From contig QHNH01000022.1 in the NCBI GenBank assembly GCA_003218375.1, forward strand, positions 1 through 64,000: a DNA stretch of 64,000 nucleotides, given 5' to 3'. Below the pieces are notes generated by a model, which was not told the origin of the DNA, searched no databases, and saw nothing but the letters and a program-made list of their open reading frames with translations. Of this stretch, positions 32,788 through 37,571 are shown piece after piece. Both the position numbers and the translations under genes were made by a program. Every line of letters begins with the position of its first letter. Position 1 is the stretch's first letter. The stretch is from Verrucomicrobiota bacterium (GTDB lineage Bacteria > Verrucomicrobiota > Verrucomicrobiia > Chthoniobacterales > UBA10450).

Positions 32788-34539
32788 TTAGCGGTGCGGG
32801 GTCATGCGCGCCACAATCTCTTGGAAGCCGGGCTTATCCCGGATCGGGTCAAGTCTCGGATCGACCCGGATCCAGACTACATCGACCGAGCGCTGCTCGA
32901 TGGCTTTGTCGAGCCAGTGAAAAGCCGCCGCGTGGTCGCCCCACGCCGTGCAAATCGTCGCCATGTCATAGGGCGAGAAAGGTCCGGATCCCGTCGTTAC
33001 TTCCTTTACGATTTGCTCGGAGCTGGTCTTGTCGCCGGCGATGGCGTGCGCATAGGCGAGCTCCAGCTTGGCGAAGCCAGTGCCGTTTGAGAGCTCGACA
33101 AATTTTTTCGCGGTTTCAACTCCCTGCGAATATTGTTGGAGATGGAGATAAGCCTGCGCGAGAACAGAAAAAGCCAGCGCGAAATTGCCGTCGATCTCAA
33201 TGGCCCGGCGACACTCCTCGTTTGCTTCCTGATAGCGGTGGGCTGCGCCAAGAATCTTTGCTTTTGACGTTCGAATGAACGGGGAGCGCGGATCGAGCTT
33301 CCCGGCGGCGTCGATTTCTCGGGACGCCTCATCCAATCGTCCAATCTCCCCAAGAGCCCGCCCGTACCAATGGTGGGCGCTGGCGCTGTTTGAGTTCAAC
33401 TCGAGCGCCCGGCGATAATCCTTTTCGGCTGCCGCCCAGTTCCACTCGAATTCCGCCAGGAGAATTCCGCGAGAAACATGTCCCTCCGCGAGATTATCGT
33501 CGATGGCCAGGGCCGAAGAGACTTCCGTCCAGGCTTTCGAAGATGCCTCTGCTGGTGAGATCACCCCCAGCTTACCCAGCAGGATATAGGAGTCCGCGAT
33601 TCCCGCATGTCCCAGCGCAAAGCTCGGGTCTTGCGCGACCGCTTGTTCGAATAGCCCGCGTCCTTCTTGAATGGAATCGGCCGTGCGCTTGTTCAACAAA
33701 TAGCGTCCGCGCAAGTAAGAGTCGTAGGCTTCCGGACTCTGGGTGGGCGACTTGGCCAATTGCGTGTTCTCGGCCAGGTGCAATTCGATTTTCAGCGCGG
33801 CGGCCACCTTCCTGGCTATGTCGCTCTGCAAGGAGAGAAGGTCTTTCTCCGTGGAGTCATAGGTTTCGGACCAAAGATGGAATCCCGTCCCAACATCGAT
33901 GAGCTGCGCTGCGACCCGCACCTTGTCCTTGCCGTGCCTGACGCTGCCTTCCAGGACATGCGTGACCTGAAGCTGCCGTCCGATGTCGCGAATGTCGCTG
34001 TTCTTGTTCTTGAACGAGAAAGCGGTGGTCCGGGCCACCACGAAAAGGCCGTGAATGTGCGCAAGCGAATCGATGATCTGTTCGGTGATCCCGTCGCTGA
34101 AATATTCCTGATCTTTGGCCGGACTGATGTCCAGAAACGGGAGAATGGCGATACTCTTTTCCGCATTCTTTATGAGGTTCGGCTCGGCCGGGTGATAATG
34201 GCGCCATGCCATGATCGCGATGACCGTGAGCAGCACGCCGATGATCACAAAATCGATCTTTCGTCCGGTGCCGCGGGCAATGGACTTTCCGGGCGCCACT
34301 TCCTCGGTGCGTTGTAAGCCTTCCGGTGTCAGCTCATAGACCCACGCAATGATCACGGCGACGGGGAAACCCAGCATCAACACCACAATGACCATTCGCG
34401 TCGCCCAATTCGGAATCTCGAAAAATGGGAAAACCTGCGTGGCAATCTGGACGAGCAACCAGCCTACGACTCCATAAGCGACCGCTACCCGGTAGACATT
34501 CCGCCGCTGCAATTCGGCGAAAAACTTTTTTAGATTCAC
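32788..34539 (-). CDS. Membrane-anchored TolB-N/TPR protein, copy 3
   Basis: A 583-residue relative of copies 1 and 2 with a more divergent TPR part. GTG start, then FFAELQRRNVYRVAVAYGVVGW, a membrane hairpin (TRMVIVVLMLGFPVAVIIAWVYELTPEG split by loops), a further helix (IDFVIIGVLLTVIAIMAW), a TolB-N domain with KSIAILPFLDISPAKDQEYF and LEGSVRHGKDKVRVAAQLID, and TPRs (DPSFALGHAGIADSYILLGK, AEGHVSRGILLAEFEW). It is promoter-proximal in the cluster, 71 bp upstream of the candidate precursor gene. The three copies probably sense or scaffold something at the inner membrane. Confidence 0.85.
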   Translation of the reverse strand: MNLKKFFAELQRRNVYRVAVAYGVVGWLLVQIATQVFPFFEIPNWATRMVIVVLMLGFPVAVIIAWVYELTPEGLQRTEEVAPGKSIARGTGRKIDFVIIGVLLTVIAIMAWRHYHPAEPNLIKNAEKSIAILPFLDISPAKDQEYFSDGITEQIIDSLAHIHGLFVVARTTAFSFKNKNSDIRDIGRQLQVTHVLEGSVRHGKDKVRVAAQLIDVGTGFHLWSETYDSTEKDLLSLQSDIARKVAAALKIELHLAENTQLAKSPTQSPEAYDSYLRGRYLLNKRTADSIQEGRGLFEQAVAQDPSFALGHAGIADSYILLGKLGVISPAEASSKAWTEVSSALAIDDNLAEGHVSRGILLAEFEWNWAAAEKDYRRALELNSNSASAHHWYGRALGEIGRLDEASREIDAAGKLDPRSPFIRTSKAKILGAAHRYQEANEECRRAIEIDGNFALAFSVLAQAYLHLQQYSQGVETAKKFVELSNGTGFAKLELAYAHAIAGDKTSSEQIVKEVTTGSGPFSPYDMATICTAWGDHAAAFHWLDKAIEQRSVDVVWIRVDPRLDPIRDKPGFQEIVARMTPHR

Positions 34540-34607: not shown

Positions 34608-34623
34608 GGGGGCTGCGGCCCCC
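34608..34623. repeat. Short GC hairpin
   Basis: GGGGGC / GCCCCC with a 4-base loop lies 4 bp from the truncated methyltransferase fragment. It may be a remnant terminator, but no T-run follows. Confidence 0.4.
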
Positions 34624-34626
34624 GCG

Positions 34627-34792
34627 CTATTTCACACCGGTGGCAAAAACCGTTTGGAAATGCGGGCTCTGTTTCTCGCGCGAGACGACGGTCACTTCGA
34701 TCTGTTTGAACCCGGCGGCTTCAAGAAATTGATGGAGCTGCACTTCGCTGAAGCCGAGCCAGTGATCGGCGTAAAGCTCGCGAGCGCGCTCG
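34627..34792 (-). pseudogene. 3' fragment of an ArsR-methyltransferase gene
   Basis: Read on the minus strand this gives the last 55 codons of a protein ending ...ARELYADHWLGFSEVQLHQF...VVSREKQSPHFQTVFATGVK and a TAG stop. The stretch is colinear without gaps with 36636-36801, the 3' end of the intact gene, at about 80% identity by eye (about 32 differences in 166 bp). Most differences fall at minus-strand third codon positions, so it comes from a diverged functional homologue and not from recent copying. There is no upstream part. It marks the left border of the restriction-modification island. Confidence 0.85.
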
Positions 34793-34862
34793 TCGGGCGT
34801 GAATGCGTGAAAGTTTTTTTGCGTTTGCTTAGAGAGGCGAGAGGCACAGAATCATTTTGGAA

Positions 34863-36008
34863 ATGAGTTACGAATCTGTCGATGCGTTGCAAAAGGTTCT
34901 TGTTGAATCCGTGTTTCATTATGCTCAGGACAGGAAAAAAGCGGCGGGCCGAGCCCTTGGGACGCTCGTGGAAATCATTACCTATTACGGACTAAAAGCG
35001 TGGGGTTTCCGCGACAACGTTGCGATTGAGCGTCCGCTTCCAGAGTACGGAAATCCCGCGATTACACATAATGTGGAGTTTTCTCTTCACCCGGTTCTTC
35101 GTCGGCAATCGATGAAACTGCAACGATTCGCGCTACCGCTAACTTCGAAGAAATTGCGTGCTGCGCTAGACGCTGTGGGATTTGCACATTCGGATCTTAC
35201 AGCGAAGGCCGCACAGGTGTTGAGCAAGCAAGGTGTCTTGCGAAATGCTTGCACTTTCGGAGAATCTCCAAACGCATTCTGCATCGTAAGCGTCGATGAA
35301 AATGAAGAAGATCGCTATGCTCTGACTGTCAGCGTCCTTAGCCGCCACCCTTTTGCCATCTTTGAATGCAAACGGGTCGGAATCGAAGAGGGGACGAAAA
35401 AAGGTCCCCAGTCGATCGAGAAAGCGAAGCAAGGGGCATATGTGGCGCGAACAGTATCGTCTCTTCAGAAAATTCGATACTCGGATGGACAAATTGGCGG
35501 CGTAATTCATCTGCCCAACGGCAGACTTTATCACAAACCTTACGACGAACTACTGGAGGAGGTTGTGGCATCGAGGGATGGCGCGGTCTTGCGCGATTTC
35601 ATCTTGACCGTTGGTGTCGTGAGCAATCACGGAAATTGGTTCACGGATAAAGACCACAACAAAGAACTCAAAGTTTTGGCACAATCTTACGATTGGCTCC
35701 TTTTTCTAACGGACCGCGGCCTATCAGAGTTCGTGAGCGAAATGTTGCTTAAACCCACTCCTGAACTGACGGATGCCAGAGAAGCATTTCTCAAGAGCTA
35801 CGGCCCTGAGAATTCAGGGAACCGATTCACGAAAGTGAAAATGGACATGAAAGCCGACCTCGTTCTTAGAAATTATTTTGCGGCCCACAAGAAGAAAATC
35901 GAGTCCTGGTTCAATGTAATCGCTCCAGCGAAACGCACAGTGAAAACGCTCCAAGCAGAACTCAGAGCTCTGAATGACAAAGATTGGAGCAAGATATTGA
36001 AGAAATGA
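34863..36008 (+). CDS. Putative PD-(D/E)XK restriction endonuclease
   Basis: A 381-residue protein that I do not recognise by family. It contains VEFSLHPV and, later, PFAIFECKRVGIEEGTKKGPQSIEKAKQGAY, which fits the E...ExK core of PD-(D/E)XK nucleases, with a helix after it. The ATG at 34863 is preferred to an upstream TTG two codons earlier. It overlaps the start of the adenine methyltransferase gene (ATGA), the expected organisation of a type II restriction-modification pair. Base composition is visibly AT-richer than the surrounding genes. The function is inferred mainly from the context. Confidence 0.65.
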   Translation: MSYESVDALQKVLVESVFHYAQDRKKAAGRALGTLVEIITYYGLKAWGFRDNVAIERPLPEYGNPAITHNVEFSLHPVLRRQSMKLQRFALPLTSKKLRAALDAVGFAHSDLTAKAAQVLSKQGVLRNACTFGESPNAFCIVSVDENEEDRYALTVSVLSRHPFAIFECKRVGIEEGTKKGPQSIEKAKQGAYVARTVSSLQKIRYSDGQIGGVIHLPNGRLYHKPYDELLEEVVASRDGAVLRDFILTVGVVSNHGNWFTDKDHNKELKVLAQSYDWLLFLTDRGLSEFVSEMLLKPTPELTDAREAFLKSYGPENSGNRFTKVKMDMKADLVLRNYFAAHKKKIESWFNVIAPAKRTVKTLQAELRALNDKDWSKILKK

Positions 36009-36601
36009 CGGCGGGACGGACAATTAATACATCGAGCCAACATTGGGGCACTCCCCGAAAATATGTTAGCGCAGTAAAACGCGTATTCGGAGGGGAGATA
36101 GACCTCGATCCCTGCTCAAACGAATACTCTTTGGTAGAAGCGAGGCTCGAATACATCTTGCCTCACAAAGATGGACTGAAGGAGTCGTGGAATTTCCGCA
36201 CAATTTTTGTAAATCCACCGTACGGCATCGATAAGGGACGGGAAACGTCGATTAAGCATTGGCTTTATCGATGCGCCGCGGCCCATCGAAACTACGATGC
36301 GGAGGTAATAGCGCTCGTTCCGGTCGCTACCAACACGGGGCATTGGAAGAAATATGTATTCGGCCGCGCAACCGCCGTCTGTTTTTTGTACGACACCCGG
36401 TTACGTTTTCTAGTCAATGGCCGAGACGAAGGAAAGGGGGCTCCAATGTCCTGTGCGATGGTTTATTGGGGGCCTCAGTTTGATCGTTTCTTCGAAGTTT
36501 TTTCAGGCCACGGCGCCGTTATCGATTTGCGACCTCTCGCTGGGAAGCCAATTGGGGAAACCGATCGTCTCGTTGAGCCTGTGTTGCTTTCGGAATTTTG
36601 A
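36005..36601 (+). CDS. DNA N6-adenine methyltransferase (phage Dam-type)
   Basis: A 198-residue protein. The start is HWGTPRKYVSAVKRVFGGEIDLDPCSNEYS, as in phage-type Dam proteins (PF05869-like), and the catalytic motif IV is FVNPPYG, the NPPY of adenine N6 methyltransferases. GRETSIKHWLYR and IALVPVATNTGHWKKYVF follow the family. The ATG at 36005 overlaps the upstream stop, so expression is likely to be coupled to the nuclease gene. It would protect host DNA from the neighbouring nuclease. Base composition again differs from the flanking genes, consistent with acquisition. Confidence 0.87.
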   Translation: MTAGRTINTSSQHWGTPRKYVSAVKRVFGGEIDLDPCSNEYSLVEARLEYILPHKDGLKESWNFRTIFVNPPYGIDKGRETSIKHWLYRCAAAHRNYDAEVIALVPVATNTGHWKKYVFGRATAVCFLYDTRLRFLVNGRDEGKGAPMSCAMVYWGPQFDRFFEVFSGHGAVIDLRPLAGKPIGETDRLVEPVLLSEF

Positions 36602-36635
36602 CTATCATCTTATTGCCACACGGGGCTGAAGCGAT

Positions 36636-37571
36636 TCATTTGATGCCTGTCGCAAGGACTGTCTGGAAGTGCGGGCTCTGTTTTTCCCGAGAGACGACAG
36701 TTACTTCGATGTTCTTGAATCGCCGCGCTTCGAGCAACTCGTGGAGCTGCACTTCGCTGAAGCCGAGCCAGTGATCGGCGTAAAGTTCGCGAGCGCGCTC
36801 GAAACGGTGGCTCAGCAAATCCAGGATCACGATCCGGCCGCCCTTTCGCAGGATGCGGTGAGCGCTGGCGATCGCGCGCTCGGGATGGATCGCGTGATGC
36901 AAGGCCTGGCTGAGAATCGCAAGATCGACTGTGCCCTTCGCGATGGGCGGATCTTCGATGTCCCCCAGGCGATATTCGAGGTTCGCGAAGCCGTGTCGTT
37001 TCGCAAGCTGCGCGCCGAACTCCACCATCTTCGGCGCGTTATCCACGGCGATCACTTTGCGCGCGGTCTTGGCGAGAAGCTGCGAGAGCGTTCCTTCGCC
37101 CGCCCCGAGATCGGCGACGGTCAGTGCCGGCAAGAGTGAGATCAGGGTGTGGGCAAGCGCCTGCCAGGAACGTCCCGGCACGTAACTGCGTCCGAATTTT
37201 CCCGCCAACTCGTCGAAATATTCGCGCGCCTTGTCCCGGCGTTTGCGCAGAGCAAGCTGGAGCGCGGTGCGGTCGCGCGCTGTTTCCGGCATTTCCCGCG
37301 CGAGCGCGCGGATCAGTTCATTCACTTTCGCGCGGGCGGCGTTGCGCCCCTGTTTCGCGGTCAGGCCGTAGTAAACGTTTTTCCCCGAGCGCCGGTCCTC
37401 GACGACTCCGGCGCGTTTCAACTGGGCCAGATGACTCGAGATCCGTGATTGGCCCATCCCGAGAATTTTCTGGAGCTCGGCCACGGAAAGCTCGTCCTCC
37501 TCGAGGAGAAGGAGGAGCCGGAGCCGGGTTGGATCCGCCAGGAGTTTGAGAAAATTAATGGTTGACGCCAT
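36636..37571 (-). CDS. ArsR-family regulator fused to a SAM-dependent methyltransferase (SahR-like)
   Basis: A 311-residue protein. Residues 1-90 are an ArsR winged helix-turn-helix (LADPTRLRLLLLLEEDELSV, then GMGQSRISSHLAQLKRAGVV). The rest is a class I methyltransferase with VADLGAGEGTLSQLL for SAM, VDLAILSQALHH and ILRKGGRIVILDLL. This fusion is the architecture of the S-adenosylhomocysteine-responsive regulator SahR, which controls metK and ahcY in some Proteobacteria. Here it is divergent from metK with ahcY next, which supports the same role. A nested dyad lies between the two genes. It may also have methyltransferase activity on its own. Confidence 0.85.
   Translation of the reverse strand: MASTINFLKLLADPTRLRLLLLLEEDELSVAELQKILGMGQSRISSHLAQLKRAGVVEDRRSGKNVYYGLTAKQGRNAARAKVNELIRALAREMPETARDRTALQLALRKRRDKAREYFDELAGKFGRSYVPGRSWQALAHTLISLLPALTVADLGAGEGTLSQLLAKTARKVIAVDNAPKMVEFGAQLAKRHGFANLEYRLGDIEDPPIAKGTVDLAILSQALHHAIHPERAIASAHRILRKGGRIVILDLLSHRFERARELYADHWLGFSEVQLHELLEARRFKNIEVTVVSREKQSPHFQTVLATGIK

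Follow-up and report, generated by a model that had tools for sequence, protein, structure and literature searches.

A restriction-modification-like gene pair in the 3' end of a regulator gene, flanked by a mosaic direct repeat, in a Verrucomicrobiota bacterium

The window analyzed here, a stretch of 64,000 nucleotides that is part of a 3.96-Mb genome in 52 contigs, contains a regulator gene that adjoins metK and ahcY. On the opposite strand, two further genes separate it from a second copy of its own 3' end (Table 1). An initial annotation of this DNA had called the regulator SahR-like, which, judged from its domains and its place beside metK-ahcY, is a fair name. The two intervening genes overlap by an ATGA (36005-36008), and the unit of 2009 bp has room for these two genes only. 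Comparison with homologues makes the ATG at 34863 the more likely start of the first one, rather than the TTG at 34857.

Table 1. Features of the locus, in positions of the window.
Feature	Positions	Strand	Description
TPR1 gene	32788..34539	-	in congeners, lies natively downstream of the regulator
Copy A	34627..34792	-	orphan 3' end of the regulator gene: 54 final codons and stop
Copy A core, near-identical	34733..34792	-	59/60 with copy B; stops at the junction with the island
Island DNA preceding the nuclease gene	34793..34862	+	no similarity to the regulator
Putative restriction endonuclease	34863..36008	+	381 aa; PD-(D/E)XK-like; invariant FECKRVG.EEG and KGP..EKAKQGAYVA
DNA N6-adenine methyltransferase	36005..36601	+	Dam family PF05869; DPCSN and NPPYG motifs
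Copy B	36636..36801	-	3' end of the intact regulator gene
Copy B core, near-identical	36742..36801	-	pairs with the core of copy A
Regulator	36636..37571	-	311 aa; ArsR-type HTH and SAM-dependent methyltransferase domain; intact

The product of the second gene matched the Dam family of Pfam with an E-value of 4.1e-15 and 56.3 bits (cut-off 28.1). Like the phage-type N6-adenine methyltransferases of this family (PF05869), it carries DPCS and NPPYG motifs and scores above the Pfam cut-off; unlike them, it is linked to a dedicated nuclease and stays below the cut-off of the NCBIfam model phage_N6A_met. Regarding the nuclease, we obtained no sequence match in Pfam, NCBIfam, PADLOC or the PDB. Its AlphaFold2 model has a mean pLDDT of 81, and a search with Foldseek alone gave no significant match to it. 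In the structural comparison, PD-(D/E)XK nucleases were among the best but weak matches (PfoI with a Z-score of 5.9, NucC and Cdn1 with 5.2 each). The ECKRVG motif is invariant across the homologues. Together, the structural matches to the model and this motif make a PD-(D/E)XK restriction enzyme the likely identity of the protein.

The initial annotation had described the pair as overlapping, AT-richer than its surroundings, foreign and of the restriction-modification type. The overlap and the AT-richness were confirmed, and a foreign, restriction-modification-like pair is supported. The GC content of the nuclease and methyltransferase genes is 0.487 and 0.511, respectively, against 0.574-0.615 in the neighbours (0.50 against 0.58 for the two-gene unit), and GC3 follows the same trend, with 0.51-0.53 against 0.70-0.78. 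Among 82 other genomes of the family we found neither the linked pair nor any nuclease homologue, and one distant Dam-like match. The two genes do occur together in six other distant loci, including some in Verrucomicrobiota and Bacteroidota, with nucleases that are 50-76% identical and with different neighbours. We found no match to the nuclease among phages, plasmids and viral contigs. A putative nuclease gene with an adjacent methyltransferase of a recognised family is kept as a unit across distant genomes. Since the pair recurs in unrelated neighbourhoods, it very probably represents a mobile type II restriction-modification system, and by family and linkage the two proteins would act as an ordinary restriction-modification pair.

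One homologous locus, from a cyanobacterium (L063), has the nuclease beside a gene that we read from its sequence as C5 methyltransferase-like; the nuclease gene there has an internal stop codon. This locus is flanked by a direct repeat of about 200 bp (4766-4969/7540-7745, 93-94% identity), which occurs at full length only there in that genome, and we found no empty site among the relatives of the cyanobacterium. None of the other homologous restriction-modification loci, several of which have short flanks, showed a convincing flanking repeat.

Copies A and B form a gapless direct repeat with an offset of 2009, in which 134 of 166 bases are the same (80.7% identity; 82% over the 164 nt delimited by a repeat search). 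The match is far beyond chance (blastn E-value of 1e-43) and agrees with the gapless match of about 80% reported initially. Each copy codes for the 54 C-terminal residues of the regulator, and copy A has no gene in front. The 32 mismatches fall 6, 2 and 24 times at codon positions 1, 2 and 3, respectively, so that they are mostly synonymous, as had also been noted. Similarity ends sharply at 34792/36801, with no regulator likeness past 34792. A terminator-like hairpin on the minus strand (34608-34623) follows copy A; a terminator scan of the whole region gave 7 hits against 5.0 in shuffled sequences, which is no excess, and the hairpin was not used as evidence.

What the initial annotation missed is that identity is not uniform along the repeat. 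The inner 60 bp, next to the unit, contain a single mismatch (at 34777), while the outer 106 bp contain 31, that is, 98% (59/60) against 71% (75/106) identity. In order to contextualize these values, we compared the 1711 pairs of regulator genes of the family. A core with at most one mismatch was present in four pairs, with at most 17 outer mismatches as compared to the 31 between A and B, and a contrast between core and outer part like that of A and B was present in none. When mismatches were spread according to site variability, about 10 of the 32 were expected in the core, and zero or one fell there in at most 1 of 20,000 draws (P at most 5e-5 with either weighting). Such unequal divergence points to two parental sequences for the outer parts of A and B and, for the core, to a single or a matched one.

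These figures bear on a simple account of the repeat, a long target duplication made in the present lineage, with copies that then diverged in place. Restriction-modification genes with long direct repeats on either side have been reported (PMC3031569), the cyanobacterial homologue has such a repeat, and here as well the unit is flanked by a direct repeat that corresponds to a single copy in the empty sites of congeners. The two copies do not, however, stem from one target sequence. Changes are confined to the outer 106 bp apart from the one core mismatch and are mostly synonymous, even though A has lost the rest of the gene, and uniform decay would not give 59/60 beside 75/106. Divergence in place could still hold if gene conversion had acted on the core only, at the cost of an extra assumption, and we regard this account as very improbable.

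We then looked at the neighbourhood of the regulator in related genomes. In congeners G021 and G024 it is directly followed by TPR1, with no unit in between, and in G026 one extra gene of about 540 codons separates them. TPR1 and a kinase-like gene follow the regulator in other genera too (G038, G039 and G042), which makes the order regulator-TPR1-kinase-like gene probably ancestral and, in that case, lost in G020, G022, G023 and G025. The sister species G020 has TPR2 after the regulator and lacks TPR1; its TPR2 gene is in fragments through an internal deletion (L048:12230-12795). Across about 60 loci surveyed, the genes that follow the regulator are native TPR genes, cyclase-domain genes and one recurrent gene for a protein of about 510 aa. 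We considered whether the 3' end of the regulator is a hotspot for islands and found no integrase islands in these loci. Neither of the two situations that the initial annotation had named as contradicting it occurred in the relatives: we saw no second full regulator gene at this place, and the pair itself was absent from them.

The survey also returned regulator fragments and irregular copies elsewhere. G033 and G036 contain a second, partial 3' end covering residues 193-311 (L036:4827-5485 and L038:1723-2342), in a stretch of about 660 bp that is 91% identical between these two genera in spite of differing gene neighbourhoods, and each genome has an intact regulator elsewhere. In G010, a degenerate, frameshifted 3' end lies before a TPR gene, with unrelated genes upstream (L042:4782-5040), and is a candidate for another displaced end. 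G053 has a decayed remnant (residues 148-191 and 258-311) between kinase-like and TPR genes (L044:2332-2648), with an intact regulator on another contig. In G068, the regulator match is part of a 1008-residue open frame, as though the regulator and the TPR protein that follows had been joined (L074, C214:1384-2283). Finally, contig breaks within the G073 regulator were considered and rejected as a sign of duplication, given that the contig ends overlap by about 111 identical bases, which points to assembly or strain variation.

To decide which copy is native, we compared both with the congeners. A single alignment to G021 covers A, the spacer and TPR1, which provides the empty site for the border of the island. 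Over the outer 106 bp, B has 13 private bases that are absent from congeners, A has 3, and the congeners themselves have 1 to 7. Relative to the sister G020, B shows 28 mismatches in these 106 positions against an expectation of 14.3 derived from the 5' part of the gene (P=0.0003), and A shows 22 (P=0.02). A tree of the outer 106 bp gave a branch of 0.017 to A, among the genus, against 0.29 to B, with forks so poorly resolved that neither copy is placed firmly. Sites supported within the genus favour A over B by 20 to 11, which is not significant on its own (P=0.15). With A colinear with the regulator-to-TPR1 order and B excessively divergent, A is the better candidate for the native copy and B for the imported one. 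According to these sequence comparisons, A is probably the displaced native end and B the end brought with the island and now used by the working gene, so that by our reading the regulator would be chimeric.

The initial annotation had proposed the opposite, that A is the piece of the donor's gene and B is native, and such a scheme could include TPR1 and the following genes on the donor side. There is some basis for it: the sister G020 has its regulator followed by TPR2 and not TPR1, so TPR1 and A could have arrived with the island, and the outer part of A is nearest to G021 and G026 rather than to G020. Against this, private sites are most numerous in B, which is also the copy farther from G020, and the regulator is followed by TPR1 and the kinase-like gene in G038, G039 and G042 as well, so that this order is probably ancestral. 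We consider this assignment quite unlikely. The part of the initial claim that is supported is the presence, alongside the island, of a regulator piece from a related organism; its identification with A is probably wrong, and B is the likelier piece. We found no donor genome with the 3' end of B, nor one with the island in the same site.

With A as the displaced native end, we lean towards an entry in two steps, by which the mobile two-gene unit would have reached its place within the regulator's 3' end together with a donor gene end. In the likeliest route, the unit would first have inserted into this gene in a related donor, duplicating a long stretch of the target, and would then have passed to the present lineage through homologous exchange. 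One crossover would have taken place in the regulator, up to the core, and the other at the boundary between core and outer part of the duplicated copy. A crossover at that boundary accounts for identical cores with unlike outer parts: both cores would be donor-derived and nearly identical, the outer part of B would come from the donor and that of A would be native. In this way, the donor's 3' end would have joined the 5' part of the resident gene in the same reading frame. The regulator would have remained complete, and the resident 3' end would have been displaced by 2 kb, as a remnant that lacks a start. The flanking repeat of about 200 bp at the cyanobacterial homologue is an independent hint for the target-duplication step. 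For restriction-modification systems, target duplications that are long and variable have been reported (PMC3031569). As in those systems (Nobusato, Furuta and Kobayashi), we see here a two-gene unit with a flanking direct repeat of 100-200 bp; unlike in them, the copies are unequal, with a near-identical part and a strongly diverged one. Several points speak against the two-step entry: A is also somewhat far from G020 (22 mismatches against 14.3, P=0.02); the site count of 20 to 11 is not significant on its own; G020 lacks TPR1, so that A and TPR1 may have been acquired; our searches gave no donor genome; and among the homologous loci, the cyanobacterial one alone has a convincing flanking repeat.

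The closest known arrangement is that of prophage e14 in E. coli K-12, which is inserted in the 3' end of the housekeeping gene icd and supplies a replacement for the 54 C-terminal residues, with mostly silent changes and the frame kept; the displaced original end, icdC, is left as 165 bp on the far side of e14 (PMC11148124). Our locus likewise has an insertion in a gene 3' end and, by our reading, an in-frame replacement end of 54 residues and a displaced original end left over. On the other hand, e14 has its own putative integrase and excises at 11-bp direct repeats (PMC4759930), whereas the unit described here is 2 kb long, has two genes and a near-identical core of 60 bp, and no site-specific recombinase is present in its 2009 bp. 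This likeness suggests a Campbell-type integration, in which a circle of about 2 kb with the replacement 3' end would have entered by a single crossover in a 60-bp attachment core, with an integrase acting in trans or since lost. The anatomy is almost that of e14 in icd (PMC11148124), and a direct-repeat core does lie at the junction. However, the only two tyrosine-recombinase (PF00589) matches in the whole assembly, which we would guess to be XerC/XerD-like, are not near the unit, and the surveyed relatives have no integrase island at the site. Moreover, a core from a donor whose gene is 29% diverged beyond it should show more than one difference, unless selected as an attachment site. Integration of this type therefore seems unlikely to us.

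An element in a gene 3' end that replaces the gene end is already known from the E. coli prophage, and no new mechanism is required here. What the locus adds is a clean empty site together with a mosaic repeat, which make it a good example of a restriction-modification islet in a gene 3' end, show how a small defence unit that brings no recombinase can occupy a chromosomal gene and leave it unbroken, and correct the likely direction of the exchange with respect to the initial annotation. It also draws attention to a nuclease family for which Pfam and NCBIfam have no model and whose partners are methyltransferases of the Dam type and apparently also of the C5 type. As a broader proposal, to which we give little credence for now, minimal restriction-modification islets of this kind might move between species by using the conserved 3' end of a methyl-cycle regulator as a homology arm, repairing the gene that they enter. 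If the islet does carry such a repairing gene end, its insertion would cost the host little.
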